Assembly: GCA_001880285.1 (NCBI GenBank)
Contig: CP016269.1
Coordinates: 1,188,501 to 1,252,500, forward strand
Source: Flavobacteriaceae bacterium UJ101
Lineage (GTDB): Bacteria > Bacteroidota > Bacteroidia > Flavobacteriales > UJ101
Length of the DNA stretch: 64,000 nt
Reading direction: 5' to 3'
The notes under the pieces are model-generated. The model was not told the origin of the DNA. It worked only from the letters and a program-made list of their open reading frames with translations, and ran no database searches. Below, piece after piece: positions 13,537-44,005 of this stretch; position 1 is the stretch's first letter, and every line of letters starts with the position of its first letter. A program made the translations under genes and the position numbers.

Positions 13537-13570
13537 AAAAACATTGTGAAAAAATTCACAATGTTTTTTA
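13536..13570. terminator. Terminator shared by hxlR-type gene and the original tRNA
   Basis: ACATTGTGAA (13541-13550) with TTCACAATGT (13555-13564), 4-base loop, T run after it on + and A/T run on the other side. Before integration the minus-strand tRNA would have read into this hairpin. Confidence 0.85.
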
Positions 13571-13619
13571 AAAGTGGTCCCACATGGGCTCGAACCATGG
13601 ACCCCCTGATTATGAGTCA
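13566..13619. repeat. attL: 54-bp direct repeat containing tRNA 3' fragment
   Basis: Identical over 54 bases to 43923-43976. It holds the tRNA 3' half (anticodon loop with CAT, variable region, T arm, acceptor strand) and 8-9 flanking bases. Homology to the intact tRNA stops after GAGTCA, so this copy is a non-functional fragment. It is the displaced original tRNA 3' end. Confidence 0.95.
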
Positions 13620-20600: not shown

Positions 20601-20760
20601 CAATATCATTGCCATGATTATCATATGGAATATTTGCTATTTCAGTATAATAATCAATTAATTCCTTACTCAGATATTTATGCTTTGAAGTAACTGATGC
20701 TCCAGCACCTAAAAATAAAATACACTTTCCACTTGCTATTGAGTCAAATAATTTGTTCAT
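17641..20760 (-). CDS. SIR2-domain plus P-loop NTPase protein, candidate antiphage defence (Avs5-like)
   Basis: 1039 residues from MNKLFDSIASGK; an upstream in-frame ATG (20808) would place promoter and hairpin inside the gene. SIR2-like domain at about 1-290: FLGAGAS (17-22), TTNID (102-106), KLHG (145-148), IGYSFSDRF. P-loop NTPase at about 330-620 with GSYGTGKST (357-365). A long helical C-terminal region, probably TPR-like sensor repeats, completes it. SIR2 effectors in Avs5, DSR and related systems deplete NAD+ on phage sensing; the SIR2-NTPase-repeat order fits Avs5/STAND proteins. No partner gene is adjacent. Defence function is inferred from architecture and island location. Confidence 0.8.
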   Translation of the reverse strand: MNKLFDSIASGKCILFLGAGASVTSKHKYLSKELIDYYTEIANIPYDNHGNDIVDFVNKVFSISKYDRNDFDVRISDWLGRKLKAESFHFESISIPWKLIITTNIDTLIEESVAKNKIESSFEFLRNIKEFKHNIHSNTKTKVVKLHGCISDIGEYPILFSTKEFEKNNKFYNQIFSLLNQFSDDVTILFIGYSFSDRFGDLFLNMFQEKLVGRNHYLVSPDIDTSEFYQDYWSSKKITPIKKDYKTFIDDYSKWYDANKDKYNSKSRNRYVLPNNTKINFHLSSQLEYFIVPINDNYSIKDNIDPLKFYLGQEPNYLIIKENLDVVWKEKTKEVKQVLLNKFEEQELDCSIIFLKGSYGTGKSTFSYRLIKELTTESKDIVAFEIIDFDKLNIGLIKSLIENLKEVQKVIIYSDLVDLENNFKRIRELRGELNAEQYQDKSIILLQSIRENRLEAYKNKFKIKDINEIDINCIFNEDELNELISKLAQKSVIELKDEKEKQTIINDILIDKELNNPLTIFLKIIKKGNHSKYIINAYNQFDNEDTKKAFKFTCLLYQYGIKMPVGVLKNLISADYQKFKTEVLQTDGKGVFIQEHITNDKYLMPDLYFKVNHKILAKSFIDNFYKNTNTLFSDFQKIVNSLSSNSYSVKLFVKLIKELRNEKKFDDSKINRLYDLAFKHIGLEKQFLIHYTKNLQFRILNKKDNLIKAIKLLDEYELNEDLKRSYFSRDEYLIHRKACVKIELAKLLYNNNDGYYINEYQEAIELFDIKLSLAPDSIFSYRNYIKALYWYEGISEDEVEKAKNDIKIYRLINKAIANLEENADEIIKLQKRYKKRLNESELLQRIDDLYQDQETRPYSLLMRIEYLNTKGEEIDESIIDEIKMYSFVNEVSEFLMYYYGSRLHYTNNRIEFNNIINNNKSIIEKNKIDYLYFSFIAEIYNRNLKEAFSFQKDIRRIFPSAKLKTSLYFTDYETNEKQVFDGTIIKEGSFYNLKATSHGRSLIARINNKKFDFKKLLNQTLEVHLYFTYTGLWADIIKS

Positions 20761-20765
20761 AGCTA

Positions 20766-20773
20766 CAAAGGTA
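20766..20773 (-). promoter_or_regulatory. -7 element of the SIR2-NTPase gene
   Basis: Minus strand TACCTTTG, five bases before the ATG at 20760. It directly follows the T run of the terminator at 20775-20806, so the gene starts its own, possibly leaderless, transcript. Confidence 0.5.
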
Positions 20774-20774
20774 T

Positions 20775-20806
20775 AAAAAAACCACCTCACAATAAAGCAA
20801 GGTGGC
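20775..20806 (-). terminator. Terminator upstream of SIR2-NTPase gene
   Basis: CCACCT/AGGTGG (20782-20787, 20800-20805) with a 12-base loop; on the minus strand it is followed by seven T. It lies just after the decayed DUF3871 end, mirroring the hairpin that follows the intact DUF3871 gene. Confidence 0.65.
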
Positions 20807-20811
20807 ATCTA

Positions 20812-23147: not shown

Positions 23148-23900
23148 TTAATTAGGAAAAGCATTATATTTTATAGCTAATTTAAACAATAAAACTTGAA
23201 TCTCACTAAATTTATGATCTTGAGCTAGTTCATTTATATTAGAATTATAATCACAAAAAAGAATAAAGTTCTGTATGTCAGAATCTTTTATTTTTAAATC
23301 ATTAATAAAAAAATAAGCCCCAAAATATTCTTGTATTAATTTTCTAATTTTATGATTATCTATATATGTTTTTGCCTTTTTTAATTTTTTTTGAGATGAT
23401 TTATACATATTAAATGATCTTCTATAAAATACAGGAGGACCGTTGTTTTTTGGAGGAGCAATATAAAAAGACACTTGTTCCCCTAAATCTAAATTAGTTG
23501 GTTGAACTTTGTTTAAAATTTGTTGTTGCTTGTAACTTTTTAATTTTGATTGATTTTCTTTTATATCGGCTGCTAAATCTCCAGAAAATTTTAAAGGACT
23601 TATAATAACTTCATCTATAGTATACCTGTTAATATCAATATAAAAGTATTTTTCTTTTATTTCCTTACTTGTAATAATATATTCTTTATTAAAAGCATTT
23701 AGTATAAGTGTATCACTTTCTTTAACCTTTAATTTGAAAATTGTATTGGTAACAGTATTAATAGAGTCATAACTATTCTTATTATACAACATTATAAGTG
23801 TATTTTCTTCACTTAAAATCTCCCCATTTATAATTTCTCTGTTTTGAGAAAAAAGTAGATGAAACAGTATAAACAATATAAAAGAAAAAGAATACTTCAT
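23148..23900 (-). CDS. Exported protein with carboxypeptidase-regulatory-like N-terminal region
   Basis: 250 residues with signal peptide (MKYSFSFILFILFHLLFSQ). Residues 20-95 have the strand pattern of a CarboxypepD_reg-like domain (INGEILSEENTLIMLYN, YFYIDINRYTIDEVII); the Lys/Gln-rich C-terminal part is helical. Proteins of this kind recur in Bacteroidota RiPP export loci. Its start overlaps the HlyD stop by one base, tying it to the export genes. Confidence 0.6.
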   Translation of the reverse strand: MKYSFSFILFILFHLLFSQNREIINGEILSEENTLIMLYNKNSYDSINTVTNTIFKLKVKESDTLILNAFNKEYIITSKEIKEKYFYIDINRYTIDEVIISPLKFSGDLAADIKENQSKLKSYKQQQILNKVQPTNLDLGEQVSFYIAPPKNNGPPVFYRRSFNMYKSSQKKLKKAKTYIDNHKIRKLIQEYFGAYFFINDLKIKDSDIQNFILFCDYNSNINELAQDHKFSEIQVLLFKLAIKYNAFPN

Positions 23901-25195
23901 TAATTGTATTTAAATAAATCCCTAAACTGATAAAAAATACGTTCAATTAATCTTAAATCTTCTGTTATAATATCAGCAGTTCCTTGCATTTCTTGTTGGA
24001 AATATAGATCCTTATTATAGGTTGTATGTAATTTATTAGGTAATGTTACCTCTATGTAATAGTTCCCTTGTTTATCAGGTGTCAAAGACATGGTTTTAAC
24101 ATAACCTTCTACCATTCCAAACTCTTGATAAGGGTAATTATCTAATTTAATCAAAACTTTCTGATTGGGTTTTATTTTTCCTGTTTTATTTGCTTTTGTA
24201 GTTATCTTTCCTACAATTTCAGAATCTAAAGGTAAAATAGAAATCACATTATCTCCAACTTTTACAAATTGATTTTCTCCCCAAAACTGCTGAAAACTAG
24301 CTTTTCCACTAATGGAAGCTTTTATTAAATAAATATGTTCCCACTGTTTTAAAGAACGTTTTAATTGCTCATAAGATAAAATAACTTCTTTTAAAAAACG
24401 GGTATTATCTTGCGTATTATGAATTGTTGAACTTTGAATTCCCTTTTGAGCTGTTACCTTTGATGAATGAAGCTGTGAAAGTTGTATTTTTGTATTCTCA
24501 TAATTTCGTTTTGCCTGTAAATAATCCAATTCTTTTGATTCAAGATCTACTTGAGATATTACACCTTCTTCATATAGAGATTTTGTTCGATTATAATCTT
24601 TTTTTCTTACTTCTAATTCTTTTCTTTCCAATTCTTGCTGAGATTTTAAAACTCTGGATTGTGTATTTAGTTCTAATAAAGTCTGTTCACTGGCTAATGA
24701 CTCTATTGAATAAGGTTTTAATTTTTTATGCAATGTATAATCGGAATAGGCTTTTTCAAATAAAGCATAATCTTGTTCCAGTTCTCCTAAATTGAGATGT
24801 TGTATTTTTTCTATTGGAAATTTAAAATTAGTATAATTTTGATTAAAAGAATCTATAACCTCTCTTAAGTTTAAAATATCATTGAAATTAGCTGTATTCT
24901 CGATAACCGCTAATATTTCATTTCTATTTACTTTTTGTTGATCTTCAACTAAGAATTTCACAATTCTCCCCCCTGTTTGGGCTTCAATTTTCTCTATAGG
25001 CGTATTGGTTGTAATTTTAATAGTTGTTGAAATAAAATCAGGATATTTAACCATCCAACTTACCATTAATATAAGTATTATAGATAAGAATATAATCGTT
25101 ATTCCCCATCTAACAATCCATCTAGGAGGGTTACTCAATACTTCCTGAACTTCTTCAGATCTTAAATCAATATGTTCTAATTCATTAGGATTCAT
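23900..25195 (-). CDS. HlyD-family membrane fusion protein (peptide exporter adaptor)
   Basis: 431 residues. One N-terminal membrane helix (about 31-49), a lipoyl/barrel-sandwich half (IEKIEAQTGGRIVKFLVEDQQ), a long coiled-coil hairpin (about 110-270), the second half-lipoyl segment and a beta-barrel (TTKANKTGKIKPNQKVLIKLDNYPYQEFG). It should join the C39 ABC exporter to an outer-membrane channel, none of which is in the cluster. Its start overlaps the exporter gene by 11 bases. Confidence 0.9.
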   Translation of the reverse strand: MNPNELEHIDLRSEEVQEVLSNPPRWIVRWGITIIFLSIILILMVSWMVKYPDFISTTIKITTNTPIEKIEAQTGGRIVKFLVEDQQKVNRNEILAVIENTANFNDILNLREVIDSFNQNYTNFKFPIEKIQHLNLGELEQDYALFEKAYSDYTLHKKLKPYSIESLASEQTLLELNTQSRVLKSQQELERKELEVRKKDYNRTKSLYEEGVISQVDLESKELDYLQAKRNYENTKIQLSQLHSSKVTAQKGIQSSTIHNTQDNTRFLKEVILSYEQLKRSLKQWEHIYLIKASISGKASFQQFWGENQFVKVGDNVISILPLDSEIVGKITTKANKTGKIKPNQKVLIKLDNYPYQEFGMVEGYVKTMSLTPDKQGNYYIEVTLPNKLHTTYNKDLYFQQEMQGTADIITEDLRLIERIFYQFRDLFKYN

Positions 25196-27386
25196 TTAAC
25201 TTCTCTAGTTCTAATTGATTTTTAACTAAATGGTAATAATCTCCTTTCTTTGCAATAAGACTACTATGCGTTCCTTGTTCTACAATTTTTCCACTATTCA
25301 TTACAATGATCTGATCTGCATTTTTTACGGTACTAAGGCGATGAGCTATTATAACAGCTGTTTTACCTTTAAAAAACTGATTGAGATTTTCCATTATAAT
25401 TCTTTCATTGTGAGCATCTAAAGCACTTGTTGCTTCATCAAAAAAAATGAAATCTGGATTTTTATATACAGCTCGTGCAATTAATAAACGTTGTTTTTGG
25501 CCACCACTTATCCCAATTCCTTCACTCCCAATTTTTGAATTGTAACTTAAAGGTAAACTTTCTATAAAATCTTTGATATTAGCTACAGTTACAGCTCGCA
25601 ACAACTTTTCTTTATCAATATAATTTTCTCCTACTACAATATTATGGGCAATGGTATCATTAAAAATATAACCTTCCTGCATAACAGCTCCACAGTGTGA
25701 ACGCCATGTTCTTTGTGAAATGGTATTAAAGTTTTGACTCCCTAGCTTAATAAAACCTTCATTAGGTTCATAAAAACGCATTAAAAGTTTCATAAGGGTT
25801 GTTTTTCCACTTCCTGAAGCTCCTACTATAGCTGTTGTTTTTTTATGAGGAATAATTAGATCAATCTGATTAAGTACATATTCTTTTACTCCTATATAAC
25901 GAAAACTCAAATTATCAATTTGAATATCTTTGTTAGGTTCTATTTCATATAATTTAGGTTGTTCTAAATCTTCCTCATCTTCTTTATCATGAATTTCATT
26001 TAATCGTTCTAAGCTAATCTTAGCATCTTGCATATCCTGTATAAAATCAACCAATTGAGAAATTGGATTATTTAACTGTCCTATAATGTATTGTATTGAT
26101 AACATCATACCTAATGAAATTTCTCCTTTTAAAACCAAAGAAGCAGAAGTAAATGTAATGAGAATATTTTTTAATTCATTAATAAACTGAGAGCCAATAG
26201 ATTGCAATTGCTCTAAGGTTAAACCTTCCATAGACACCTTAAATAAACGAACTTGTATAAACTCCCATCCCCATCGTTTTTGTCTTTCAGCATTATGTAG
26301 TTTTATTTCTTGCATTCCACTAATGAGTTCAATGGTTTTACTTTGTTCTTCACTCATTTGGGTGAAACGTTTGTAATCCAATTCTTTTCTGCGTTTTAAA
26401 AAGAAAAAAATCCAACCAATAAATAAAATACTTCCTATAATAAAAATTAAAAAAATAGTAAGATTATAATAAATAAGAATAAAACTAAAAACAATAATAT
26501 TAAAAAATGAAAAAAGAGTATTAAGAGACGATCCAGTTAAAAAAGTTTCTATTCTTTTGTGATCTTCAATACGTTGCATAATATCGCCTGTCATTCGAGT
26601 ATCAAAATAGGCTATGGGAAGATTCATGAGTTTTATAAAAAAATCTGAAACTAATGAAATATTGATTCGTGTGCTTAAATGTAATAAAATCCAACTTCGA
26701 ATAGCTTGAATACTGATTTGCCCTACAAACAACATAATTTGAGCAATTAATATTAAATAGATAAAATCTAAATCTTGATTTTGAATCCCAATATCTACAA
26801 TACTTTGAGTAAGAAAAGGAAATAGTAATTGTAAAAGACTTCCTGCTACTAACCCTATAATTAACTGAAAAACAAGTAATTTGTATTTGAATAGATAAGT
26901 GTAAATGAATTTAAATCCAGCATTGGATTTTGTCTCCCATTTATTATCGTAGAATCTATGAGTTGGTTCTAAAAATAAAGCAATTCCTTCTTCGGTTGTT
27001 TCGTTTGCATTTTTACCAATCCAATTTTCTATAAATTCATCTTCTTCATACGTTATTAAACCATAAGCAGGATCTGAAATATAAACTGTATTTTTTGTGA
27101 TCTTATAAATTACTACAAAATGGTATTTATTCCAATGTAAAATACAAGGTAAAGGAGCCTCTTCTTCTAACGTTTCATAATCTAATTTAGCACCTATAGT
27201 TTTGAATCCAATATTTTCAGCAGCTTCTGATAAACCTAATAAAGAACTTCCCTCTCTTGTAGTTTCACTCAAATGACGTATTTGTTCCAAATTAATAGAT
27301 TTACCATAATATTTACTTATAATTCGTAAACAAGTAGGTCCACAATCTTTTTGCCCTGGCTGCTTATAATTTGGGAATGATTTCAA
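25185..27386 (-). CDS. Peptidase-containing ABC transporter (C39, bacteriocin-type)
   Basis: 733 residues. C39 peptidase (about 1-140) with catalytic Cys15 in QKDCGPTC, His in HFVVIYK and Asp in ISDPAYG, so it should be active and cleave after double-glycine leaders. Five or six membrane helices follow (about 160-450). The nucleotide-binding domain has Walker A GASGSGKTT, signature ISGGQKQRL and Walker B IIFFDEATSALD. It would cut and export both GG peptides of the cluster (31686-31832, 35042-35188). Downstream of the SpaB_C gene by 16 bases. Confidence 0.95.
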   Translation of the reverse strand: MKSFPNYKQPGQKDCGPTCLRIISKYYGKSINLEQIRHLSETTREGSSLLGLSEAAENIGFKTIGAKLDYETLEEEAPLPCILHWNKYHFVVIYKITKNTVYISDPAYGLITYEEDEFIENWIGKNANETTEEGIALFLEPTHRFYDNKWETKSNAGFKFIYTYLFKYKLLVFQLIIGLVAGSLLQLLFPFLTQSIVDIGIQNQDLDFIYLILIAQIMLFVGQISIQAIRSWILLHLSTRINISLVSDFFIKLMNLPIAYFDTRMTGDIMQRIEDHKRIETFLTGSSLNTLFSFFNIIVFSFILIYYNLTIFLIFIIGSILFIGWIFFFLKRRKELDYKRFTQMSEEQSKTIELISGMQEIKLHNAERQKRWGWEFIQVRLFKVSMEGLTLEQLQSIGSQFINELKNILITFTSASLVLKGEISLGMMLSIQYIIGQLNNPISQLVDFIQDMQDAKISLERLNEIHDKEDEEDLEQPKLYEIEPNKDIQIDNLSFRYIGVKEYVLNQIDLIIPHKKTTAIVGASGSGKTTLMKLLMRFYEPNEGFIKLGSQNFNTISQRTWRSHCGAVMQEGYIFNDTIAHNIVVGENYIDKEKLLRAVTVANIKDFIESLPLSYNSKIGSEGIGISGGQKQRLLIARAVYKNPDFIFFDEATSALDAHNERIIMENLNQFFKGKTAVIIAHRLSTVKNADQIIVMNSGKIVEQGTHSSLIAKKGDYYHLVKNQLELEKLNES

Positions 27387-27402: not shown

Positions 27403-28248
27403 TTATTTTAAATATTTCTGTATTCCATATTCACTCTTATAATACTGAAATAGTAGATCGTAGCATACCCATTCATTAATTCGTTGCTTGGAATGAAAAG
27501 ACCTATTGCATAACATATGTAAATAGCTATACAACAAACTATTAATTATCTCCTGATCTTTTGTCTTTTGAGAAATATCTTTAGCTATTTTAGAATATAG
27601 TTCGTGAAAATAGGATTCATCTTCCGTTTCTTCTTTAAGGGTACTCTTTATCATATTAGCTGAATCTCTATATTTTTTATTAAGTTGTTTTCTTGTAAAC
27701 TTATTAATTTTAAACTCATCTCCAAAATCCATTTTCATAGTTTCTAATAAATCTTTTTTACTTTTTAAATCTAATTTGAAACTATTTAATATTGTATCAA
27801 TCATTTTTATTACTAAAAGCCATCTATTTTCACTATTAAAATCTATAGATTGTAAATTTGTGAGGACTTGCTTACTGTTTATATAAAAAAACTCTTCAGA
27901 AAACTCTATTAATTCGTTATGATATCGTTCAATTTCTCTATTATACGTGTCTAAAACAACTTTATAAGCCATTTTTTTTGAGACTAACGTATCTAATTTT
28001 TTATATAAAATAGAAATAATGAACCCTATATTATTTACATCATTGATCAAAAAACGTATTCTAATATGAGGATCAGGATCATTATAACGAATAAAAAACC
28101 ATTTTATAATATTTTTTTTTATTATTTCTTCCTCAAGAATATCAGGTAAATAATTAATTATAAAATGATCTATAGTCTGAGTACCCATATATATTTTATA
28201 ATAGATCCATTCACTACCAATAATAAAATGACGTTTTATGTTTTGCAT
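27403..28248 (-). CDS. Stand-alone SpaB_C/thiopeptide-type domain protein (LanB elimination half)
   Basis: 281 residues. The hallmark W-F-x-R-Y-x-D-P-x-P-H-x-R-x-R appears as WFFIRYNDPDPHIRIRF at about 50-66. In full-length LanB this C-terminal domain eliminates glutamate from glutamylated Ser/Thr to give dehydroamino acids. Here it is a separate protein, as in split-LanB systems such as pinensin. It overlaps the dehydratase gene by 13 bases, implying stoichiometric synthesis. Confidence 0.92.
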   Translation of the reverse strand: MQNIKRHFIIGSEWIYYKIYMGTQTIDHFIINYLPDILEEEIIKKNIIKWFFIRYNDPDPHIRIRFLINDVNNIGFIISILYKKLDTLVSKKMAYKVVLDTYNREIERYHNELIEFSEEFFYINSKQVLTNLQSIDFNSENRWLLVIKMIDTILNSFKLDLKSKKDLLETMKMDFGDEFKINKFTRKQLNKKYRDSANMIKSTLKEETEDESYFHELYSKIAKDISQKTKDQEIINSLLYSYLHMLCNRSFHSKQRINEWVCYDLLFQYYKSEYGIQKYLK

Positions 28249-30404
28249 ACTGAAAAAATAAATTCGTTAGAGTAAACACAATCTTCTTTTTTAACAATAG
28301 AATTATATTTAGTAAATAAATTTTCTTTTAAAATAACCTCTTCTTTATTTTTTATAACTTCTAAAAAAAGATTACAATTAAATTGATCCTTTAAATTGAT
28401 AGGTAGTTCATTATCAAATTCAACTACTAAAATATGGTCATCAATATTCATTTCATTTGTAATTTTAAAAACATCATTAGGTGTTTTTAACATTTTTAAT
28501 TGTTTTTCGTCTAACAACCATTTTTTTGGAGAAAGAATTATATTTTGATATTGAACTCTAGGAACATATTTAAAATCTTTCAATAATGAATTTATATTCA
28601 TACCTAAATAATCAACTTTATCTTGAGTTTGTAAATCACATAAAAAATTATAGATAGGTAATGCATTAAAACTATAGTTATGAGCATTTGATAATCTTGG
28701 TTCAACTATTTTATTATGCTTTCTTGATCTTAGAATTATCTTATTATTTTTTATAGACAGATATAAATCATTAATATTAATTTGATTCTCTATTGGTAAA
28801 TTACTTTTTGCTAAATAAGGTATTTCATAGTTTCTTACATTTTTCCTATAAAGGATATTCCCTGTTCTACTTTCTGGAAGATGAATAATTTCTGCTAGAA
28901 TTCGATTGGATTGATTTTGATTTTCAAGCTCTAAAATATTATTTATAAGGTTTTCAATATTTTTGCTAACATGACCAAATCTTCCTAATAAATACGTACC
29001 AGAAGATCCTCCAACAGAACTCATACTAATCAAGTTTTCTCCTTTTTTTTCTCCCTCTAATAAAGAACATAAAATAGAAAATGTATCAGGTAAATCATTC
29101 CATTTGTCTTCAAAATTACTTAGGTCAGATTCCGAAATAATAATTTTTTCTTCATTATTTTTTAAAGCTTCAACATATTTTTCTTTTAAAAATTGAGGAA
29201 TAGTATTTTGATCACTTTGACCTTCTTCTGTATTCAAATTTAAAATTAGATCATCTATTAGAGGATTTACATCGTATCCCCCTTTTAAATTTTGATCATA
29301 CCCTATGCCTAACTCTACATCTAATGCTAGAGGTAAAGCAATTTCCTCATCTTCATATCTTTTATAAAATTCTTCTTTGAATTTTTCTAATCTAGTGTTT
29401 GGAACTTTACTAGTAAGTTTAGTTAAAATATAAACTCCTTTTTTAAGATCTTTTAAAATACTTTTATTAATCGTATTAGTATTATAAAACACTTCTAAAT
29501 CTGTTTGTAATATGTATTTTTTATTTATAGAAGTATTATTCTTTTTTAAGAGTTTTTCTAATACATTGTAATCTTTATAAGCATAAAAAGATGACATTGA
29601 ATTATTAGTTATGAGATCACGTATATCATGCAAGTTAGGAATATTCGTTTTATCACATAATATATTTAAATAGTCATTTCCAGAAACAGGTGAGGATAGA
29701 TCACTTATCAATATTTGATTTTCAATGAGTTCTAATATAAAGTTTTTCAAATCAGTTTTATTTATAGAAGTATCATTCATATATAATTGAAGTTCATCTA
29801 CTATTTCTTTTATCGTTTTTCCATATTTAGTTTTTTCTAATATAAATTTAATATAGTCTGAATAGTCAATAGATATGGTAAAATGTTGTCTAATATTGTC
29901 AATATACTTATATTCTACATATCGATAATGATCTCCTACTCGATAAATACTCGTATTTGGATAATATTTTAATTGCTTATAGACATTTTCTTGCTTTTCT
30001 AATTCAAAAGAAAGAGAGCATAGATAGTTCATATCCAATCTATTAATTCTTCTAAATTTATCAAAAGAGCCTATTTCTACTTCCGTCGTTTTTTCTGATA
30101 TATCACCTATTGCAATTCCTGAAAATAAACCAAAAGGAGTACATCTAGATGACATCCGTAATATATATTTCAGAATACTTCTTTTTAATTTCTCTACTTT
30201 ATCTATCGAAGTTATTTCTTGATTTAAATACTTTATAATTTGATCATAAAGTTCTGGAGAAGCTAAATATACTGCTTCTAAAAATAGATCGTTTTTACAA
30301 AAACTTTTTATTTCTTCATCAGTAAATTCTTTATATATCCACTGTAAATCAAATAGAGGAGTCCTTGCTACGTATTGATTAAGAATTTTATATTCTCTAC
30401 TCAT
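28236..30404 (-). CDS. Lantibiotic dehydratase, glutamylation domain (LanB N-terminal half)
   Basis: 722 residues, matching the N-terminal glutamylation domain of class I LanB (full LanB is about 1000). Hallmarks: RMSSRCTPFGLFSG at about 83-96, FGHVSKN, and ILRSRKHNKIVEPRLSNAHN, all characteristic of LanB. It uses glutamyl-tRNA to esterify precursor Ser/Thr. The elimination domain is encoded separately just downstream. The transcript starts upstream at or before the precursor gene at 31686-31832 and passes through the LanC-like gene. Confidence 0.94.
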   Translation of the reverse strand: MSREYKILNQYVARTPLFDLQWIYKEFTDEEIKSFCKNDLFLEAVYLASPELYDQIIKYLNQEITSIDKVEKLKRSILKYILRMSSRCTPFGLFSGIAIGDISEKTTEVEIGSFDKFRRINRLDMNYLCSLSFELEKQENVYKQLKYYPNTSIYRVGDHYRYVEYKYIDNIRQHFTISIDYSDYIKFILEKTKYGKTIKEIVDELQLYMNDTSINKTDLKNFILELIENQILISDLSSPVSGNDYLNILCDKTNIPNLHDIRDLITNNSMSSFYAYKDYNVLEKLLKKNNTSINKKYILQTDLEVFYNTNTINKSILKDLKKGVYILTKLTSKVPNTRLEKFKEEFYKRYEDEEIALPLALDVELGIGYDQNLKGGYDVNPLIDDLILNLNTEEGQSDQNTIPQFLKEKYVEALKNNEEKIIISESDLSNFEDKWNDLPDTFSILCSLLEGEKKGENLISMSSVGGSSGTYLLGRFGHVSKNIENLINNILELENQNQSNRILAEIIHLPESRTGNILYRKNVRNYEIPYLAKSNLPIENQININDLYLSIKNNKIILRSRKHNKIVEPRLSNAHNYSFNALPIYNFLCDLQTQDKVDYLGMNINSLLKDFKYVPRVQYQNIILSPKKWLLDEKQLKMLKTPNDVFKITNEMNIDDHILVVEFDNELPINLKDQFNCNLFLEVIKNKEEVILKENLFTKYNSIVKKEDCVYSNEFIFSVCKT

Positions 30405-30427: not shown

Positions 30428-31627
30428 TTATTGATAAAAACCTAAAGCTTCTGCCCATAAATAATCATCAAAATCAGAAGAGGATAATATTAAACCAATA
30501 CCTAAAATACCATCAAATAAACTATATTTATCATAAGGATAATTTTTTGTTTCATTTTGCCATATTGATTCAGGCATAAGAATAGTTTCATTAGTATTTA
30601 AAACAGTTTGAGTATTTATCAATAATTGGTTCTCCCAATATTGAATTTTTTCTTTCACAATTTCTAATTTCAAGTAATTGTTTACTTTTTTTAAAAGGAA
30701 GACTATAGCACCAATTCCATGTGAAAATCCAATATCATAAAATGATTCTTTCTCAAAATAAATAATACCTGATTCTTTAATATCTATTTGGCAAAAGTCA
30801 AGAACCATTTCTTTAGCTATGAGAAACAGGTTATCTCTCCCATTCCCAATAACATTATTCGCATATAATAAAGAATATGCTACTCTTAAATAACCAAAAG
30901 AGTTTGATAAATTATTAATATTCTGTTTAGGTTTAAAAGTTTTATGTTTTTTTATACTCACCTCTTTGAACATGATTTTATAATCTATAGCAACTTTTAA
31001 AAGTTCATCGAGTATTGAGTCTATATATTTATTTTGAAAATTTATCTCTTTTAATTTTATAAAATAATTTAAAATATCCAAATGATAATTAATGTCAATT
31101 GATTTTTTCATTAAATAATCATCCCATGTAATATAATTTTCATAATAAGTACGTTTGTAATAAAGTATGTTTATAATTTCATTAATTATACTATCTTTTT
31201 GATCTTTATATTTTTTTGATAAAAAAAATATTTGAGATTTACCAATACATCCATGAATGAAATTATATTTTCTATTAGTTAAATCATAATGAATAGACTC
31301 TATTAAATACTTCTCTATATCATCAGTTAATGACTGATCATTAATAATATTACTTTTATAGAAATAATTAATTGCCCAAAATATTCCCTCAAATCCATGT
31401 ATAAAACTATAAGCTAATTCTTGTTTTTCAAATTCCTTTATAAATTCTTGTAAAAGATTTATAGCTTTATTCTTATTTACTTCTTCATTAGTGACTCTAT
31501 ATAGATGTGTAAAAAAAATTATTGTACCTAAATCTTCATCAATAAATGGATAATACATCTTTTTTGATTTTTCAAAAAGTCTTGTAGAAATCTCATTTAT
31601 AATCCTTTGTCTATCTATGTTTAACAT
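30428..31627 (-). CDS. LanC-like protein lacking the zinc-ligand cysteines
   Basis: 399 residues with the repeating (alpha/alpha) GxxxHG-type motifs of LanC: SFIHGFEGI (74-82), NFIHGCIGK (122-130), SNSFGYLRVAYSLL (241-254), GFSHGIGAI (300-308), LFDGILGIG (370-378). In NisC-type cyclases the fourth and fifth positions are WCYG and CHG, supplying two Cys and one His to zinc. Here, by motif order, they read NSFG and SHG: both Cys are Ser and only His303 remains. The whole protein has two cysteines (127, 279). Either it is a non-cyclising partner or it uses another mechanism. Motif assignment is by eye. Confidence 0.82.
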   Translation of the reverse strand: MLNIDRQRIINEISTRLFEKSKKMYYPFIDEDLGTIIFFTHLYRVTNEEVNKNKAINLLQEFIKEFEKQELAYSFIHGFEGIFWAINYFYKSNIINDQSLTDDIEKYLIESIHYDLTNRKYNFIHGCIGKSQIFFLSKKYKDQKDSIINEIINILYYKRTYYENYITWDDYLMKKSIDINYHLDILNYFIKLKEINFQNKYIDSILDELLKVAIDYKIMFKEVSIKKHKTFKPKQNINNLSNSFGYLRVAYSLLYANNVIGNGRDNLFLIAKEMVLDFCQIDIKESGIIYFEKESFYDIGFSHGIGAIVFLLKKVNNYLKLEIVKEKIQYWENQLLINTQTVLNTNETILMPESIWQNETKNYPYDKYSLFDGILGIGLILSSSDFDDYLWAEALGFYQ

Positions 31628-31685: not shown

Positions 31686-31832
31686 TTATTTTTGATAAGT
31701 TGTAACAGAGCCACCTATAGCAATAAAACATTTCTTCTTAGTACTAAGAATACATAATCCTCCATGTACTTTTTGCATTTCTTGATTATTAAGTCTTGAA
31801 ACTGTTTTTTTGTTTAATTGTAATTTATCCAT
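31686..31832 (-). CDS. Lanthipeptide-like precursor peptide with GG leader
   Basis: 48 residues, too short for the usual cutoff. The leader starts MDKLQLNKKTVSRLNNQ and ends EMQKVHGG (residues 19-25), close to the Bacteroidota class I lanthipeptide leader pattern (LNKKT...LN..EM..V.GG). The 23-residue core begins LCILSTKKKC and ends GGSVTTYQK: two Cys (core 2 and 10), two Ser and three Thr. Only Cys10 has Ser/Thr on its N-terminal side within the core (Ser5, Thr6), so an ordinary ring could join those. Cys2 could ring only with downstream residues or stay free. It lies directly upstream of lanC/lanB-type genes. Confidence 0.85.
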   Translation of the reverse strand: MDKLQLNKKTVSRLNNQEMQKVHGGLCILSTKKKCFIAIGGSVTTYQK

Positions 31833-31880
31833 TTTTTTAATTTTTAAATTAGTACCTACTCTATTAAATAGGATTTTCAG

Positions 31881-31890
31881 TTACCTCCTT
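31881..31890 (-). promoter_or_regulatory. Strong Shine-Dalgarno-like sequence with no ATG after it
   Basis: Minus strand AAGGAGGTAA, an unusually perfect anti-16S match for this phylum, lies about 50 bases before the precursor ATG. The next in-frame codon run from CTG (31880) is open into the precursor, but a CTG start is unlikely. Confidence 0.35.
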
Positions 31891-31923
31891 ACTTTATGTC
31901 TAGAATTTAAAGTCTAAATGATT

Positions 31924-31939
31924 AAATCATATATGATTT
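31924..31939. promoter_or_regulatory. 16-bp perfect palindrome upstream of the precursor operon
   Basis: AAATCATATATGATTT is its own reverse complement. It lies between the retropepsin-like gene stop and the precursor gene, so it could be an operator for the minus-strand operon or part of a weak terminator. Confidence 0.45.
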
Positions 31940-33142
31940 TTATAATAATATTTTTTTGATTAATCTATATGTGTTTCTGATTCCATTTCTTGAAACAATA
32001 ATATCCTCTTCAGTTACATCTTTTATATTATCGTTCATTATAAAATCACACCAATTTTCGGATGACATATTCTCGTAATTAACGTCATTAATCATAATTA
32101 TTTTATCTCCAATTTGAAGTCCTTTTTTGCTTGCATCAGAGCCATCGTAAATAGCGCTTATGTACAAGTTGTTATTTTTAAAATTAAGTGTATACCCAAA
32201 AGATTTTAAACTTTTAGTTTTATCTAAATTTAGAGACTTATCAATTAACATCTCTTTATCAAACCAATTTAGAATTATATGTGTATTTTTAAAAAAATCA
32301 AATCCTATTACATTCCCTGATAAGTCATTAAAAGTAACAGTCTGATTTTTTAGATTCATGTCTCCAATTGAAAATTCATCTACTCGAGCAAAATTTATCG
32401 TTTCATGAATCTCTTGTCCATAAATACCTACGTTATGTATTCCTTTTGCTTGAATTGACTTAATATCAGTTAACTTTTCATAAACTCTATTTGATATATT
32501 CACTCCTCCATTATACCCCAAATCAATTATAGTATTTAACACTTTATTTCCATTAATTTTACTTATAATAGATGGCGTTTTATCATACCCAACAAAAAAT
32601 TTAGTCCGATATACATCTTTTAAACTTTCTTTACCAAAAGTCATTTTATCTTTTATAGTAATGATATTTTCTGGAAAATTAAAGTCCCAAATTGTACTTT
32701 TCATTAAATTAGCTCCTATTATTCCTTCAATATTGAGACATTTAAAATGATCTTCTTCTAAATCATAAACAGAAGCTCCTATATTTTGAAAATTAACCCC
32801 TGCTATATTAATATTATCAATCAAAGTAAAATTCAACGCAGTGGTATCCGAATTAAAATCTGACACATTTTGTTTCCCTTCAAATTTTAACCCTAATTTA
32901 TTAAATAAATGATGACTAATTACTGTAGGAGCACCTGTATCTAGTAAAAAATTATATTTATTACCTTTTAACTCCGCTTCAATTATAATTAAACCATTTT
33001 TAATTTTATAAGGAATATCTACAGAATAACTTTTTTCAACAACATTTCCACTATTTAATGTTGAAATTATCTTAGAGTTTACACAACTATTTATTAATAA
33101 ACAAAAAGTTAAAATAGTAAGAATAGATCTATTTATCTTCAT
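31940..33142 (-). CDS. Retropepsin-like aspartyl protease lipoprotein with PDZ domain
   Basis: About 400 residues from MKINRSIL. Lipobox LINSC at about residue 20. Retroviral-type aspartyl protease half with LLDTGAPTVIS (DTG 68-70) and a second half with IIDLGYNGG, where Thr is replaced by Leu. A C-terminal PDZ domain follows (AIYDGSDASKKGLQIGDKIIMIND). It is envelope-anchored. It sits immediately upstream of the precursor operon on the same strand, within the cluster, so a role in peptide maturation or immunity is plausible but unproven. Confidence 0.85.
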   Translation of the reverse strand: MKINRSILTILTFCLLINSCVNSKIISTLNSGNVVEKSYSVDIPYKIKNGLIIIEAELKGNKYNFLLDTGAPTVISHHLFNKLGLKFEGKQNVSDFNSDTTALNFTLIDNINIAGVNFQNIGASVYDLEEDHFKCLNIEGIIGANLMKSTIWDFNFPENIITIKDKMTFGKESLKDVYRTKFFVGYDKTPSIISKINGNKVLNTIIDLGYNGGVNISNRVYEKLTDIKSIQAKGIHNVGIYGQEIHETINFARVDEFSIGDMNLKNQTVTFNDLSGNVIGFDFFKNTHIILNWFDKEMLIDKSLNLDKTKSLKSFGYTLNFKNNNLYISAIYDGSDASKKGLQIGDKIIMINDVNYENMSSENWCDFIMNDNIKDVTEEDIIVSRNGIRNTYRLIKKILL

Positions 33143-33335
33143 AGAAATTAAATATAAATTTTGAAACAATATTAAACGTTATAAGAGTAAAATAAAACAA
33201 TAATTGACAATGATTTATAAATCTACTTTTAACAATTTATAAATTCACCCTACAAAATAACTTTTTAAACCACTGATAAAAAGGAAATTACGTTATTTTA
33301 TCTATTTTTATTTTTTTTACTAAATTCTTTAACAC

Positions 33336-33356: not shown

Positions 33357-35042
33357 TTGTACAAAAAAATTAATCTAATAGTTACTTTTTTTATTTCTAT
33401 TACTTTTATATTTTTTATAAAAGCTGAAATAAATGATTCTTTAATTACAAAAAATTATAAAGAATTAGAAGAAAAAATCCATGATTATGCTAAAACAAAA
33501 AAGGATAGAAAACAATATGCATACACTTATTTAAAAAAGGCTAAAATTAATAGAGATACATTAAATTTATTAAATGCTTATTACAATATTTGTTTTGTTA
33601 TAGACTATAACAAAGGTTTACAATACACAGATAGCATGCTATTAATTTCAAAAACAGGTTATTATATGAATTATCCTGAAAAGGCCTATGAAATGAAAGG
33701 AAACCTTTATTATAATCTTAATAATAATGTTGAAGCTCTCGAAAATTATTTGATAGCAGAAAAAATAGCTAAGAAAAAAAACAATAAAGAATTACTATTT
33801 TTTTTAAAACAATCTTTAGGTAATCTTTATAATAATTTTAATAGAAATAAAAAAGCTAAAAAATATTTAATTGAAACTACAAATTATCATGAAAATTTAT
33901 ATCTAAAAAATTCTTCTTCTAAAAATAGATTTTCATATTTAGCAAATTTATATTCACTAGCAAATAATTATAGAAAATCTAATAATTATGATTCAGCACA
34001 ATTTCTCCTAGATAAAGGATTAAAAATTAATAAAAATGATTCAACACTTATAAATTTGTTTTTACTAGAAAAAAATGTTATTAAATATAACTTAGAGAAC
34101 TATACTGAATCAATTGCTGGAATAAAAAGAAATTTATCCTACTTAAAGAAAAGAAAAGACACACCATTATCTGATGTCATGTCGTGTTACTTATATTTAG
34201 GTAAAAATTATGAAAAACTTAATAGAAATGATAGTACTTTATTTTTTTATAATAAAGTTGATTCATTACTAAAAATTTCAACTATTCTTTATCATGATTA
34301 TCTAAGACCATATCAATTTTTAATTAAATATTATAGAAATAAAAATGTAGAAAAGGAACTTTATTACACAAAAAGACTACTATTTTTAGATAGTGTATAT
34401 AAAAACAACACTCTTTTTCTTACAGAAAAAGTTCTTGAAGAATATGAATTACCTAATAGATTACAAAATAAAGAAAAACAAATTTCTTCATTAAAGTATT
34501 CTAAAAACAAAGCTTATTTTTGGTTATGTTTACTTTTAATTGCAATAACTCTAGTTATATACTATTTTCATCAAAGATCAAAAAATATCAAACTACGATA
34601 TGAAAAAATAATAAAAAGACTAGAAGAGAATAAACAAATAATTATTAAAAAAAATAATACTACAAATTCATCTATTGATATTGAACAAAATACTGTAGAA
34701 AAAATTATCTCTCATTTAAATAATTTCGAAAAAAACAAATTATACCTCAATAAATATACACTAAATAAGTTAGCCTCTGAATTTAATACAAATAGTACCT
34801 ATCTTTCAAAAGTTATAAACCACAAAAAAGGTATTAGTTTTTCAAATTATATCAATTCATTAAGGATTGAATATATTTTAAAAAGATTAAGAGAAGATAA
34901 AATTTTTAGAAATTATACTATTAAAGCAATAGCAGAAGAAACAGGTTTTAGTAGTGCTCAATCTTTTTCACGAACATTTAAAAAAGAAACAGGTATATAT
35001 CCTTCTTATTTTATAGAAAAAATTAATCAAAATAAATTATAA
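33357..35042 (+). CDS. Membrane-anchored TPR-AraC transcriptional regulator
   Basis: 561 residues, TTG start (no in-frame ATG near). An N-terminal hydrophobic signal (about 5-23) leads to TPR-like repeats (about 90-370), then a membrane helix (NKAYFWLCLLLIAITLVIYYF, about 382-403), a coiled linker and a C-terminal AraC double HTH (about 455-561: LASEFNTNSTYLSKVINH, GFSSAQSFSRTFKKETG). This places the sensor outside and the DNA-binding domain inside the cytoplasm. The adjoining peptide gene overlaps its stop by one base (TAATG). It probably senses a periplasmic or extracellular signal and controls the cluster; the exported peptide is a candidate ligand, which is inference. Confidence 0.88.
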   Translation: MYKKINLIVTFFISITFIFFIKAEINDSLITKNYKELEEKIHDYAKTKKDRKQYAYTYLKKAKINRDTLNLLNAYYNICFVIDYNKGLQYTDSMLLISKTGYYMNYPEKAYEMKGNLYYNLNNNVEALENYLIAEKIAKKKNNKELLFFLKQSLGNLYNNFNRNKKAKKYLIETTNYHENLYLKNSSSKNRFSYLANLYSLANNYRKSNNYDSAQFLLDKGLKINKNDSTLINLFLLEKNVIKYNLENYTESIAGIKRNLSYLKKRKDTPLSDVMSCYLYLGKNYEKLNRNDSTLFFYNKVDSLLKISTILYHDYLRPYQFLIKYYRNKNVEKELYYTKRLLFLDSVYKNNTLFLTEKVLEEYELPNRLQNKEKQISSLKYSKNKAYFWLCLLLIAITLVIYYFHQRSKNIKLRYEKIIKRLEENKQIIIKKNNTTNSSIDIEQNTVEKIISHLNNFEKNKLYLNKYTLNKLASEFNTNSTYLSKVINHKKGISFSNYINSLRIEYILKRLREDKIFRNYTIKAIAEETGFSSAQSFSRTFKKETGIYPSYFIEKINQNKL

Positions 35043-35188
35043 TGAAAACAAAAAAGTTAGAAGAAAAAAACTTTCCAAAAAGTTTAGAATTAAGAAAAAT
35101 CACTATTTCTAAAATGAATTTAGTAAAAGGTGGAGGACCAGGTGGAGGTAATACATCATTTACTTTAGGTCGAACAAGACAAAAATAA
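35042..35188 (+). CDS. Cysteine-free GG-leader peptide
   Basis: 48 residues. Leader MKTKKLEEKNFPKSLELRK, then ITISKMNLVKGG, ending with a double glycine at about 29-31. The core, from the second glycine on, is GPGGGNTSFTLGRTRQK. It has no Cys, so lanthionine rings cannot form on it; Thr/Ser (NTSFT, RT) could only be dehydrated or left unmodified. Start overlaps the regulator stop (TAATG), implying coupled translation. The core resembles neither the first precursor nor its ring pattern. It may be an inducer peptide for the regulator, or a substrate of the prolyl oligopeptidase encoded next. Confidence 0.75.
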   Translation: MKTKKLEEKNFPKSLELRKITISKMNLVKGGGPGGGNTSFTLGRTRQK

Positions 35189-35255
35189 TTTTGTAATTTT
35201 AAATCCTTAAGACTTTTTATTTTAGTCTTAAGGTTATCTATAATGCTGTTTAACG

Positions 35256-37385
35256 ATGAAATATAACAATATTTATACAATTCTATTATCTCTAATTTTA
35301 ATTTCTTTAAAAAGTCAAACTTTATCTTATGATTCTATATCATCTCCTAATAATGATCCTTATTCATTTCTAGAAGATATTGATAATGAAAAAGTAATGG
35401 AATATCTTAAAAAACAAGATCAATTAACAGATTCCATTTTAAAAACAATACAGAGTACAAATAGTATTTATGATGAGTTTATTGGAAAAAGAAAAAATAA
35501 AACAGAAATTTCAAAACTTGAAATAGTCAATAACACCTTATTTTATTTAAAGAAAGATGGGGATTTACATGCGTATCCCAAATTATATAAAAGAAGTATT
35601 TTCAAAGGAAAAGAAAAATTATTATACGATCCTTCTACTATTTCTACTAATAGTAGTGATTTATATATCAATTATATCAACCCTAGCCCTGATGGGACTA
35701 AAATTATTATAGGTTTAAGTGAAGGAGGTAAAGAGTTCTCAAATCTAATTATATTGAATACAAATAATTTATATCAATATCCTACTACATTAGATAAAAC
35801 ATTTCCTAATTCATTTTTCACTTCATGGCTATATGATAATTCTCAATTTATTTATGCTAAATTTCCTAATAGTAACAATACAGGGGTAGATCGATATGAA
35901 AATTTTGAATCTCGAATCATTAAATTGGATCATGAAAAAATCAAATCAAATGAAGTTATTTTTTCAGAAAAACATAATCCTAATATTAATATAAAAAAAT
36001 CTGATTTCCCATTGACATATACAATTAATTCAAGTACAAATTATCTATTTTCAGGAATATTTGATGGAAGCAATTCGGTAGATCATTATTATAAAACCAT
36101 TCATGATAAGAAATGGTCTAAATTATACGATGCTAACGAATCCATAATTTCATTCAGTATTAATAAAAATCAACTGATTTATTTAACAAATAAAAACACA
36201 CCTAATTATTCCATTAGGCAAACTTCTTTATCAAAACCTGATTATACTAACTATCAAACATTAATAGCTGAAGATTCTATCAGTGTATTAGAAGATTTTG
36301 TTTTAACCAAAAATGGAATTTATTTTTCAAAAGTTAAAAACGGTGTAGAAGCTAAACTATATCATTATCAAAAAGGGAAGATTAACGAAGTTAAATTACC
36401 AAAAAAAGCGGGTAGCATAAAACTAAATTCAAATTATGATCAATGTTGGATAAAAATTGAAGGGTGGACTTTTGAAGAAGAATATTATATGATAAACCCT
36501 AAAAATGATAAACTAAAACCCATTATATTTTCTGATGATAATCACATTCAAATTGAAAATGCAATAATCAAAGAAATAGAAATCCCTTCCCATGATGGGA
36601 CTTTAGTCCCTTTAAGCATAATCTATAAGAAAGGGCTAAAATTAAATGGGAAAAATAAGGTATTACTTAATGCTTATGGAGCATATGGCTATAATTATGA
36701 TGCTCTGTATGAAAATTACCTTGATTATTGGTTGTCAGAAGGAGGTGTTTATGCAATAGCTCATGTAAGAGGAGGAGGAGAAAAAGGGAAAAAATGGCAT
36801 GAAGGAGGTTTTAAAAAAACAAAGCCTAATTCTTGGAAGGATCTAATTGCTTGTACAGAATATTTAATTAACCAAGGTTATACATCTCCTTCTTATTTAG
36901 CAATAAGAGGTACTAGTGCAGGAGGAATTGTCATAGGAAGAGCTATTACAGAACGTCCTGATTTGTTTAAAGTAGCAGTAGTTAATGTTGGAGCATTAAA
37001 TATTATAGAAATGGAAAAAATGGCTACTGGAGCAGCTAATACACCTGAGTTTGGTTCTGTTAAAAACCCTGAAGAATTAAAATATTTATATGAAATGGAT
37101 GCTTATCATCATATTCAAAAAGATGTAAAATATCCTTCTGTTTATTTAACTGCTGGGATGAATGATCCTAGAATTCCTGTTTTTCAACCTGCTAAATTTG
37201 CAGCTAAAATGCAAGAATATTCTACTTCAGGGAATCCTATTTTATTAGATATAAACTTTAATAGTGGCCATGGTTATGATGTTTCAGATGAAATTTTTTA
37301 TGATGAATTGAAGAAAACAATGAATTTTATTTTATCTCAAATGGGACATCCTTATTATAAAAACACATCTAATTCAAATAAATAA
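35256..37385 (+). CDS. Exported prolyl oligopeptidase (S9 family)
   Basis: 709 residues with signal peptide (MKYNNIYTILLSLILISLKSQ). Beta-propeller (about 70-420) then an alpha/beta hydrolase domain. Catalytic triad: Ser in GTSAGGIVIG (about 554), Asp in MNDPRIP (about 638), His in SGHGYD (about 672). These serine peptidases cut peptides under about 30 residues after Pro. Family relatives trim leaders in some class III lanthipeptide pathways (FlaP-type). Its place, 67 bases after the GG peptide gene, suggests it processes or degrades the cluster peptides in the periplasm. Confidence 0.92.
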   Translation: MKYNNIYTILLSLILISLKSQTLSYDSISSPNNDPYSFLEDIDNEKVMEYLKKQDQLTDSILKTIQSTNSIYDEFIGKRKNKTEISKLEIVNNTLFYLKKDGDLHAYPKLYKRSIFKGKEKLLYDPSTISTNSSDLYINYINPSPDGTKIIIGLSEGGKEFSNLIILNTNNLYQYPTTLDKTFPNSFFTSWLYDNSQFIYAKFPNSNNTGVDRYENFESRIIKLDHEKIKSNEVIFSEKHNPNINIKKSDFPLTYTINSSTNYLFSGIFDGSNSVDHYYKTIHDKKWSKLYDANESIISFSINKNQLIYLTNKNTPNYSIRQTSLSKPDYTNYQTLIAEDSISVLEDFVLTKNGIYFSKVKNGVEAKLYHYQKGKINEVKLPKKAGSIKLNSNYDQCWIKIEGWTFEEEYYMINPKNDKLKPIIFSDDNHIQIENAIIKEIEIPSHDGTLVPLSIIYKKGLKLNGKNKVLLNAYGAYGYNYDALYENYLDYWLSEGGVYAIAHVRGGGEKGKKWHEGGFKKTKPNSWKDLIACTEYLINQGYTSPSYLAIRGTSAGGIVIGRAITERPDLFKVAVVNVGALNIIEMEKMATGAANTPEFGSVKNPEELKYLYEMDAYHHIQKDVKYPSVYLTAGMNDPRIPVFQPAKFAAKMQEYSTSGNPILLDINFNSGHGYDVSDEIFYDELKKTMNFILSQMGHPYYKNTSNSNK

Positions 37386-39993: not shown

Positions 39994-41202
39994 TTATAAG
40001 TCTAATAACTTTCTATTTTCCTTATCCAAAGCTTCATTATCAAACTCTTTTAGGTAAGACATTGTAATATTAACATCTGCATGTCCCATCATCTCAGAAA
40101 TTTTTTCAACTGAAGTACCACTCATTTTAAGGATCGTGGCAAAACTGTGTCTAGCAACATATGAAGATAACTTTTTATCAACACCTGCTATCTTGGCAAG
40201 TTCTTTTAATTTCTTATTATATCTACTCAATACTTTATGTTTCCTGTTGGCAATCTGTTGTGGAGTCATTCCATCTTTTAAAAGTATAGGAAACACATAC
40301 TGTGTTGGTCTATTTTGGGCTCTGTAATAATCCAGTATTTCCTGAACCTTTTCAATAATTTCTAAATTGAATTTACCTTTGGTTTTAGACCTTGTATAAT
40401 AAATTCTTTCATTCTGAATATTTTCCCATTTTAACAACATCATATCCTGAAAATTCATTCCTCTGGTATATATGGAAAACATAAAATAGTGATGTGCTTC
40501 CTGTAAATGAGGATATTTTGTCAAATCCACATCTCTGATTTTCTTAAATTCATCAATAGTTAAGGCTCTTTTAATAGGATTGGATTTTAACTTGGAAATT
40601 TTATACTCTTCAAAGGGATAAGGTTCTTTAGGTATTAATTTTCTTTTTCTAGCTTTATTGAAAACAGCTCTAATTTCCCTCATCTTAAAAGCAATTCCAC
40701 CATTTTGATTTCCATTTTCTCTTAAAAACACTTCGTACTTCTCTAAAAATATTGGTGTTATTTCTTGAAAACACAAATCCTTACCTCTAAATTTCACTAA
40801 TGAATCTCTAGTATCCTTATAAGCTTCACCATTAGCTGTTCTGCCTGACTTAATCATCTCAGCAATAATTTCATTGAAGAATTCTATAACCTTTAATCTA
40901 TTATTATTCTTTACACCTCTAAATTCATCTTCAAAATTTTCCAAAGTGAAATCATCTTGACTCAATTGTAGTTCTCTAATAATTTTAAATGCTCTTGCTT
41001 TAAATTGTAAAAGCAATTCATTTTCTATTTGATAATTAAGATGTTGTTTGGTAAAAGACTCATTTTTAAAATGATCTTTTTTAGATTCTAAACCTAAACT
41101 AATATTTTTCTTTTTTCTATCCTTAATTATTCTAAGATAGATTCTATGTTTACCATTAGACAATTCTCTACCATCCAACACCAATTTAATTGTTGTTGCC
41201 AT
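39994..41202 (-). CDS. int: Tyrosine recombinase / integrase of the island
   Basis: 402 residues, typical for Bacteroidota tyrosine integrases: N-terminal Arm-binding region, SAM-like core-binding domain (about 100-195), catalytic domain. Catalytic residues visible: Arg in IYTRGMN (about 232), Lys in the SKTKGK turn, ARHSFAT (box II Arg), GHADVNITMSYL with the final His and nucleophile Tyr. The first histidine of the HxxR motif is replaced (SYVAR), a variant seen in this group. It should recombine the 54-bp core at the tRNA and, through the TGTTTCAG arm repeats, drive excision. Confidence 0.95.
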   Translation of the reverse strand: MATTIKLVLDGRELSNGKHRIYLRIIKDRKKKNISLGLESKKDHFKNESFTKQHLNYQIENELLLQFKARAFKIIRELQLSQDDFTLENFEDEFRGVKNNNRLKVIEFFNEIIAEMIKSGRTANGEAYKDTRDSLVKFRGKDLCFQEITPIFLEKYEVFLRENGNQNGGIAFKMREIRAVFNKARKRKLIPKEPYPFEEYKISKLKSNPIKRALTIDEFKKIRDVDLTKYPHLQEAHHYFMFSIYTRGMNFQDMMLLKWENIQNERIYYTRSKTKGKFNLEIIEKVQEILDYYRAQNRPTQYVFPILLKDGMTPQQIANRKHKVLSRYNKKLKELAKIAGVDKKLSSYVARHSFATILKMSGTSVEKISEMMGHADVNITMSYLKEFDNEALDKENRKLLDL

Positions 41203-43888: not shown

Positions 43889-43923
43889 AAAAAACACTTA
43901 CAAATTTATTGTAAGTGCTTGAT
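43889..43923 (-). terminator. Terminator downstream of the tRNA
   Basis: CACTTACAA and TTGTAAGTG stem with a T run on the minus strand. It is supplied by the island, replacing the tRNA's original terminator at 13541-13564. Confidence 0.8.
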
Positions 43924-43976
43924 TTTAAAAGTGGTCCCACATGGGCTCGAACCATGGACCCCCTGATTATGAGTCA
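43923..43976. repeat. attR: 54-bp direct repeat inside the intact tRNA
   Basis: Identical to 13566-13619. The intact tRNA's 3' half is the island-borne copy, so integration restores a functional tRNA. Confidence 0.95.
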
Positions 43977-44005
43977 GGTGCTCTAACCAGCTGAGCTATA
44001 GGACC
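43932..44005 (-). tRNA. tRNA with CAU anticodon (elongator Met or Ile2)
   Basis: 74 nt. Acceptor GGTCCTA pairs with TGGGACC (one wobble), D arm AGCTCAGCTGGTTAGAGC, anticodon loop CTCATAA with CAT, T arm containing GTTCGA; discriminator A, CCA not encoded. Met versus lysidine-modified Ile2 cannot be decided by eye. The 3' half coincides with the attR core of the island. Confidence 0.93.

Follow-up and report, generated by a model that had tools for sequence, protein, structure and literature searches.

Peptide pheromones are well known in Firmicutes, and in nisin-type lantibiotic autoinduction (NisA-NisRK) a LanB-modified peptide regulates its own cluster via a two-component system. Here we describe a locus within a window of 64,000 nucleotides from Flavobacteriaceae bacterium UJ101 (assembly GCA_001880285.1, contig CP016269.1, positions 1,188,501 to 1,252,500 of the forward strand; all coordinates below refer to this window, at its full length). 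As in the nisin system, a peptide putatively modified by LanB would act on the expression of its own cluster, but the proposed sensor is a one-component membrane TPR-AraC protein and no cyclised product is expected. With the RRNPP systems (Rap-Phr, NprR-NprX, and Rgg-SHP) it shares a TPR protein, here a candidate receptor, and an adjacent gene for a small peptide that is probably exported, and the predicted TPR fold aligns with Rap and NprR, though no better than with eukaryotic TPR proteins. In contrast to RRNPP receptors, which are cytoplasmic and depend on peptide re-import, the TPR domain here is predicted to lie in the periplasm, with a membrane helix connecting it to an AraC-type HTH. 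The peptide likewise differs, carrying a GG/LanB-type leader instead of the Sec signal or SHP form of RRNPP peptides.

The precursors of Bacteroidetes class I lanthipeptides (NF038153; Walker et al. 2020, PMC7268733) are alike in leader motif and GG site, and their clusters sometimes contain a split LanB and often a C39 exporter, as is the case here (PMC7268733). Unlike these precursors, the peptide of the window has a core without Cys, which leaves no partner for lanthionine, and half of the genomes with a comparable gene cassette lack LanC. The survey of Bacteroidetes lanthipeptides was seeded from LanC (PMC7268733), so LanC-less loci would escape it. GG precursors, C39 exporters, and TPR proteins occur together in Bacteroidales RiPP clusters, as do LanC-like proteins without zinc motifs (PMC10352776); those clusters rely on radical SAM, YcaO, or LanM enzymes, and the section consulted describes no TPR-AraC/peptide/protease/LanB cassette. 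Each part of the present system (leader, LanB, C39 export, TPR fold) is known by itself. A cassette of TPR-AraC regulator, Cys-poor peptide, protease, and LanB was not described in the open-access literature searched; new with respect to this literature is that a membrane TPR-AraC protein, the putative sensor, is combined with a LanB-type peptide poor in Cys and with an exported protease of exchangeable family, LanC often being absent.

A Cys-free GG-leader peptide overlaps a TPR-AraC regulator gene

We identified an intact ORF of 48 codons (35042-35188, plus strand) that encodes a putative GG-leader precursor peptide of 48 aa, composed of the leader MKTKKLEEKNFPKSLELRKITISKMNLVKGG (residues 1-31, ending in LVKGG and containing an LxLxKx5M motif) and the predicted core GPGGGNTSFTLGRTRQK. 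The core has no Cys, and its Ser/Thr residues are T38, S39, T41, and T45. The start codon (35042-35044) has one base in common with the stop codon of the TPR-AraC regulator (TAA, 35040-35042), giving TAATG. The preliminary description of this DNA was correct on the length of the peptide, the end of its leader, the lack of Cys, and the shared base, but had called the peptide fused to the regulator. The two genes are in different reading frames and therefore overlap, which excludes a fusion; translational coupling of regulator and peptide through the one-base overlap is possible.

The peptide matched no model in Pfam or NCBIfam, including NF038153, and the family leader profile described below, built without this peptide, scored it at 1.4 bits (E 6.4). 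LELRKITISKM in its leader fits LxLxKx5L, with Met replacing the last Leu. When every stop-free 17-mer in the six-frame translation of the window was ranked by ungapped BLOSUM score, LELRKITISKMNLVKGG of the window leader scored 53 against LSLKKLQLTKLNLIRGG, the leader of a homologous regulator-peptide pair in another genome (locus L062), and the runner-up scored 38. The match thus exceeds chance, and when the small ORFs at 100 other loci were cut into 17-mers (185,377 in all), a score of at least 40 was reached by only the two query leaders, themselves picked after the fact. The proposed homology of the peptide rests on this ungapped match to short-leader members, on position, and on context; its position beside a regulator of the peptide-bearing clade is non-random. 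We regard the peptide as a probable LanB-type precursor and do not class it as a lanthipeptide, its core being free of Cys.

The regulator (33357-35042, plus strand; Pfam HTH_18, 3.1e-15) consists of an N-terminal signal/anchor helix, a TPR superhelix (residues ~30-345), a transmembrane helix (~385-403), and an AraC-type HTH (472-552), and was modelled by AlphaFold2 with a mean pLDDT of 87.9. It is predicted from hydropathy only to be a single-pass membrane protein with periplasmic TPR and cytoplasmic HTH. The TPR model aligned with Rap-Phi3T (Z 23.6) and NprR (Z 22.5). The fold is a common one, however, and eukaryotic proteins that have it, among them APPBP2 (Z 26.6), APC/C subunits, and LGN, align to the model as well as, or better than, Rap and NprR. 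The modelled fold would allow peptide sensing, without demonstrating it. Covariation between sensor and core was weak (partial Mantel 0.17), significant by permutation, and hard to separate from the TPR domain's faster divergence, a confounding for which it was dropped as proof of sensing.

Genes of the surrounding cluster

Directly downstream of the peptide, 35256-37385 (plus strand) encodes a protease of the S9 prolyl oligopeptidase family (Pfam Peptidase_S9, 1.6e-45; S9_N, 4.3e-34). Its signal-peptide-like N-terminus, and a position matching that of proteases in other loci, suggest that it is the exported protease of the cassette, a member of the unit that the preliminary description had overlooked. 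A 10-bp stem-loop at 35205-35233 lies between the peptide and the S9 gene, where it may keep expression of the protease below that of the peptide. A terminator-like hairpin at this place was tested for conservation and is not general, stems of at least 7 bp being found at 13 of 33 peptide loci.

The minus strand carries the genes of a lanthipeptide cluster. Its LanB is split into a glutamylation domain protein (N part, 28236-30404; Pfam Lant_dehydr_N, 1.1e-126) and an elimination domain protein (C part, 27403-28248; Lant_dehydr_C, 4.1e-60), which match NisB with 1.4e-25 and 5.3e-11, respectively; the C part has kept the FFxRYxDPxPHIRxR and ERY motifs. In a LanB tree the window sequence stands on a long branch near the split LanBs of the cassettes described below and apart from most fused LanBs. 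The C39 transporter that had been ascribed to the cluster is present as a C39 peptidase-containing ABC exporter (25185-27386; Pfam Peptidase_C39, 1.7e-37), which is a candidate for cleavage of the leader after GG, and is accompanied by a HlyD-type adaptor (23900-25195; TIGR01843, 1e-28; HlyD_3, 1.1e-09). A companion class I lanthipeptide precursor (31686-31832) has two Cys and the leader LQLNKKTVSRLNNQEMQKVHGG, and matches NF038153 (lant_leader_L1a, 4.6e-09) above the cut-off. The LanC-like protein (30428-31627; Pfam LANC_like, 6.6e-17) has lost both zinc-ligand Cys (WCYG to SFGY and CHG to SHG), so this Cys-containing precursor may also not be cyclised in the usual way; class III cyclase domains too are missing the zinc site (PMC7268733), and inactivity of the LanC-like protein is hence not proved. 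A lipoprotein-like aspartyl protease with PDZ domain (31940-33169, minus strand; Asp_protease_2, 5.5e-15; PDZ, 3.9e-08) is divergent from the regulator, with which it has the operator region in common. An aspartyl protease is present in only one of 100 regulator loci and is thus outside the conserved cassette, which makes it a candidate for a locus-specific partner or immunity protein.

A recurrent regulator-peptide-protease-LanB cassette

Searching 296 genomes of the order Flavobacteriales with the regulator yielded matches in 67 genomes, amounting to ~150 paralogues that are mostly 25-35% identical, and 100 of these loci were examined. Peptides were called by combining a profile of the leader with visual reading of the loci. 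Adjacency was the criterion for choosing the profile seeds, and LanB, protease, and tree position played no part in the profile; the peptides of L105 and L120 were spotted by reading loci that have LanB. Most pairs escape a plain regular-expression match to the leader. A search at family level was uninformative, the family consisting of one genome; a scan of genome contigs with the regulator found one weak relative, and a plasmid search gave partial AraC matches only.

The equivalent regulator-peptide pair, for which the preliminary description had proposed to look in other genomes, is present at 33 of the 100 loci, with the GG-leader peptide located 83-191 nt downstream of the regulator or divergently just upstream, while no peptide was detected beside the other 67 related regulators. 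The one-base overlap of the window is absent from all 33 pairs. In the regulator tree, the 34 peptide-bearing regulators, window included, fall into one half (34/55 rows versus 0/46; SH-aLRT 94). An exported serine protease is encoded next to the peptide in 32 of the 33 loci, compared with two of the 67 peptide-less ones (Fisher 1e-22; median p about 0.004 with phylogenetically independent pairs). This protease belongs to S9, S8, or S15 depending on the lineage; it is the activity, and not the gene, that is conserved. Similarly, a split LanB lies within the fetched stretch at 29/33 peptide loci and at 4/67 of the others (Fisher 1e-16; phylogenetically independent pairs, median p 0.016), often in the same operon as the peptide. 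A common gene order is regulator, peptide, protease, LanB-N, LanB-C.

The leaders of the family carry LxLxKx5L, which is the motif of Bacteroidetes class I lanthipeptide precursors (PMC7268733). Their cores contain no Cys in 11 cases, one in 19, and two in one (at least one Cys in 20/31); the Cys-rich or missing homologue that the preliminary description had named as evidence against its reading was not encountered at the peptide-bearing loci. LanC (PF05147) is absent from 13 of the 26 cassette genomes, so the cassette has no need of LanC, and a C39 domain is encoded somewhere in all 26. Two contexts recur among the cores with one Cys, SSxxC near the C-terminus in one group (L059, L069, L041, L091, and L035) and C-x6-S in another (L063, L098, L100, L087, and L068). 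Single-ring (lanthionine) products are possible for such one-Cys cores, though several of these genomes are without LanC. A class-wide search with the peptide profile retrieved, outside the sampled cassettes, mainly GG leaders of multi-Cys lanthipeptide precursors; the profile alone therefore does not define the family. Downstream of the regulator of L060, the 5' part of the peptide is apparently out of frame with the rest, which may reflect a frameshift or an error in the sequence.

The window has a regulator of the peptide clade, an adjacent GG peptide, and an adjacent exported protease, and has no LanB inside its own cassette. Its cassette appears to have merged with the neighbouring lanthipeptide cluster, sharing LanB and exporter, and we infer that its peptide uses the LanB encoded on the opposite strand. 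The pairing of regulator and peptide and the cassette around them are well supported, and the recurrence of this arrangement suggests an unrecognised chemical-signal or natural-product system, not a stray bacteriocin gene.

A putative family operator upstream of the peptide genes

De novo motif search upstream of the peptides recovered a palindrome, CGAAATTTATAAATTTCG, as family operator, with its centre 70-104 nt before the start codon in most loci and a log-likelihood of 230, compared with 67-83 for shuffled regions. Scores of at least 10 were obtained at 28/33 peptide loci and at 11/21 peptide-less loci in the same half of the regulator tree, the latter having been outside the training set, but at only 1/46 loci of the other half and in 11/300 random pieces. 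The operator is tied to the regulator clade. A sub-clade consisting of L053, L071, L073, L075, L084, and relatives has operator-like sites without peptide, protease, or adjacent LanB.

Two operator-like palindromes are located 22 bp apart in the divergent promoter region between the regulator and the aspartyl protease of the window (33209-33226 and 33231-33248). Both copies are weak (PWM scores 4.3 and 6.5); as a double site (33209-33248) they were found once in the 3.07 Mb genome, even allowing two mismatches. They precede the regulator; the peptide gene, overlapping as it does with the regulator, has no operator immediately in front of it. In the region 31833-31939, on which the preliminary description would have placed a reporter, the family operator is not matched (the best score, -4.1, ranks 1488 in the window). 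Control of the Cys-containing precursor by the regulator via this region was rejected as a candidate, the operator matrix giving it no support.

Proposed function and alternatives

The gene, its pairing, the cassette, the operator, and the predicted topology and fold point to a reading to which we assign a probability of roughly 0.55: the peptide would give rise to a RiPP that is modified by LanB without need of LanC, exported, trimmed by a protease, and sensed by the periplasmic TPR of the neighbouring regulator. The regulator would bind the palindromes at 33209-33248 and drive a regulator-peptide transcript. The LxLxKx5[L/M] leader would dock on the split LanB of the cluster, and some of T38, S39, T41, and T45 would be dehydrated; the product would remain linear, because the core is without Cys and the LanC-like protein is without zinc cysteines. 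The C39 exporter would then cut the leader after GG and export the core, which the S9 protease would trim or degrade outside the cytoplasm. Binding of the mature peptide by the TPR superhelix would switch the regulator and thereby cause autoinduction.

The preliminary description had left three readings side by side. A pheromone and a dehydroamino-acid peptide both survive and probably belong together, while the unmodified bacteriocin does not fit a LanB-type leader in a family with which LanB travels. In its wider form, the latter reading has the peptide, as pheromone or bacteriocin, exported unmodified, with the C39 exporter and the S9 protease as the only enzymes to cut it and LanB serving the precursor at 31686-31832. 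This would agree with a GG leader before a core lacking Cys, with the window LanB standing in an operon with the other precursor, and with the four peptide loci that have no LanB in the fetched stretch. We nevertheless rank it low, because LanB is associated with the homologous peptides (near 29 of 33, often in the same operon) and the leader has the LanB-type motif, and consider it improbable. Still less probable is a decaying ORF, left over from a cassette whose own LanB was lost, and retained only through the overlap with the regulator. The cassette indeed has no LanB directly in it, the overlap is unmatched among the 33 other pairs, and the leader is poorly recognised by the family profile, but the ORF, its LxLxKx5M-GG leader, and the downstream S9 gene are all intact, and L068 and L077 likewise have a regulator, peptide, and S9 protease adjoining a lanthipeptide cluster that brings its own LanB, so the arrangement recurs.

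An alternative of real weight, though on balance an unlikely one, is that LanB dehydrates the peptide to give an effector, either an antimicrobial or another secreted product, and that the TPR-AraC protein controls the cluster while sensing envelope stress or another ligand. The recurring one-to-one pairing with a sensor, the many cassettes without a dedicated exporter alongside, and the great differences among cores of paralogous cassettes argue against such an effector. It would, however, account for a leader type equal to that of real lanthipeptide precursors, for an exporter in the cluster, and for the combination of LanB with S8/S9 proteases, families from which lanthipeptide clusters have leader proteases of the LanP type (PMC7268733).

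Extending the favoured reading, that of a LanB-modified peptide sensed by its neighbouring regulator, to signalling in Flavobacteriales is more tentative, and we put it at somewhat less than even odds. In this extension a LanB-dehydrated, Cys-free pheromone would be matured or removed by an S9, S8, or S15 protease and received by a periplasmic TPR-AraC protein. Such a system would correspond to Rap/NprR quorum sensing, but in a Gram-negative setting, with the receptor facing outward and a modified peptide serving as the signal. If true, Bacteroidota would have a paired peptide-receptor module with many cognate pairs, making cell-cell signalling in this phylum directly testable, and there would be a LanB dehydratase family that needs no LanC and acts on peptides poor in Cys or free of it. 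LanB products may also be more numerous than currently counted, since the LanC-seeded survey (PMC7268733) would miss such loci.

The cluster lies between the two copies of a 54-bp direct repeat (13566-13619 and 43923-43976) that takes in the 3' portion of the gene for a tRNA-Met (minus strand, 43931-44005), and a tyrosine integrase is encoded at 39994-41202. The whole cluster appears to be part of a 30.4-kb integrative element (13566-43976). Also on this element, 17641-20808 is likely an anti-phage defence gene; its product of 1055 aa combines a SIR2-like with a STAND NTPase-like domain and has only a weak PADLOC match.
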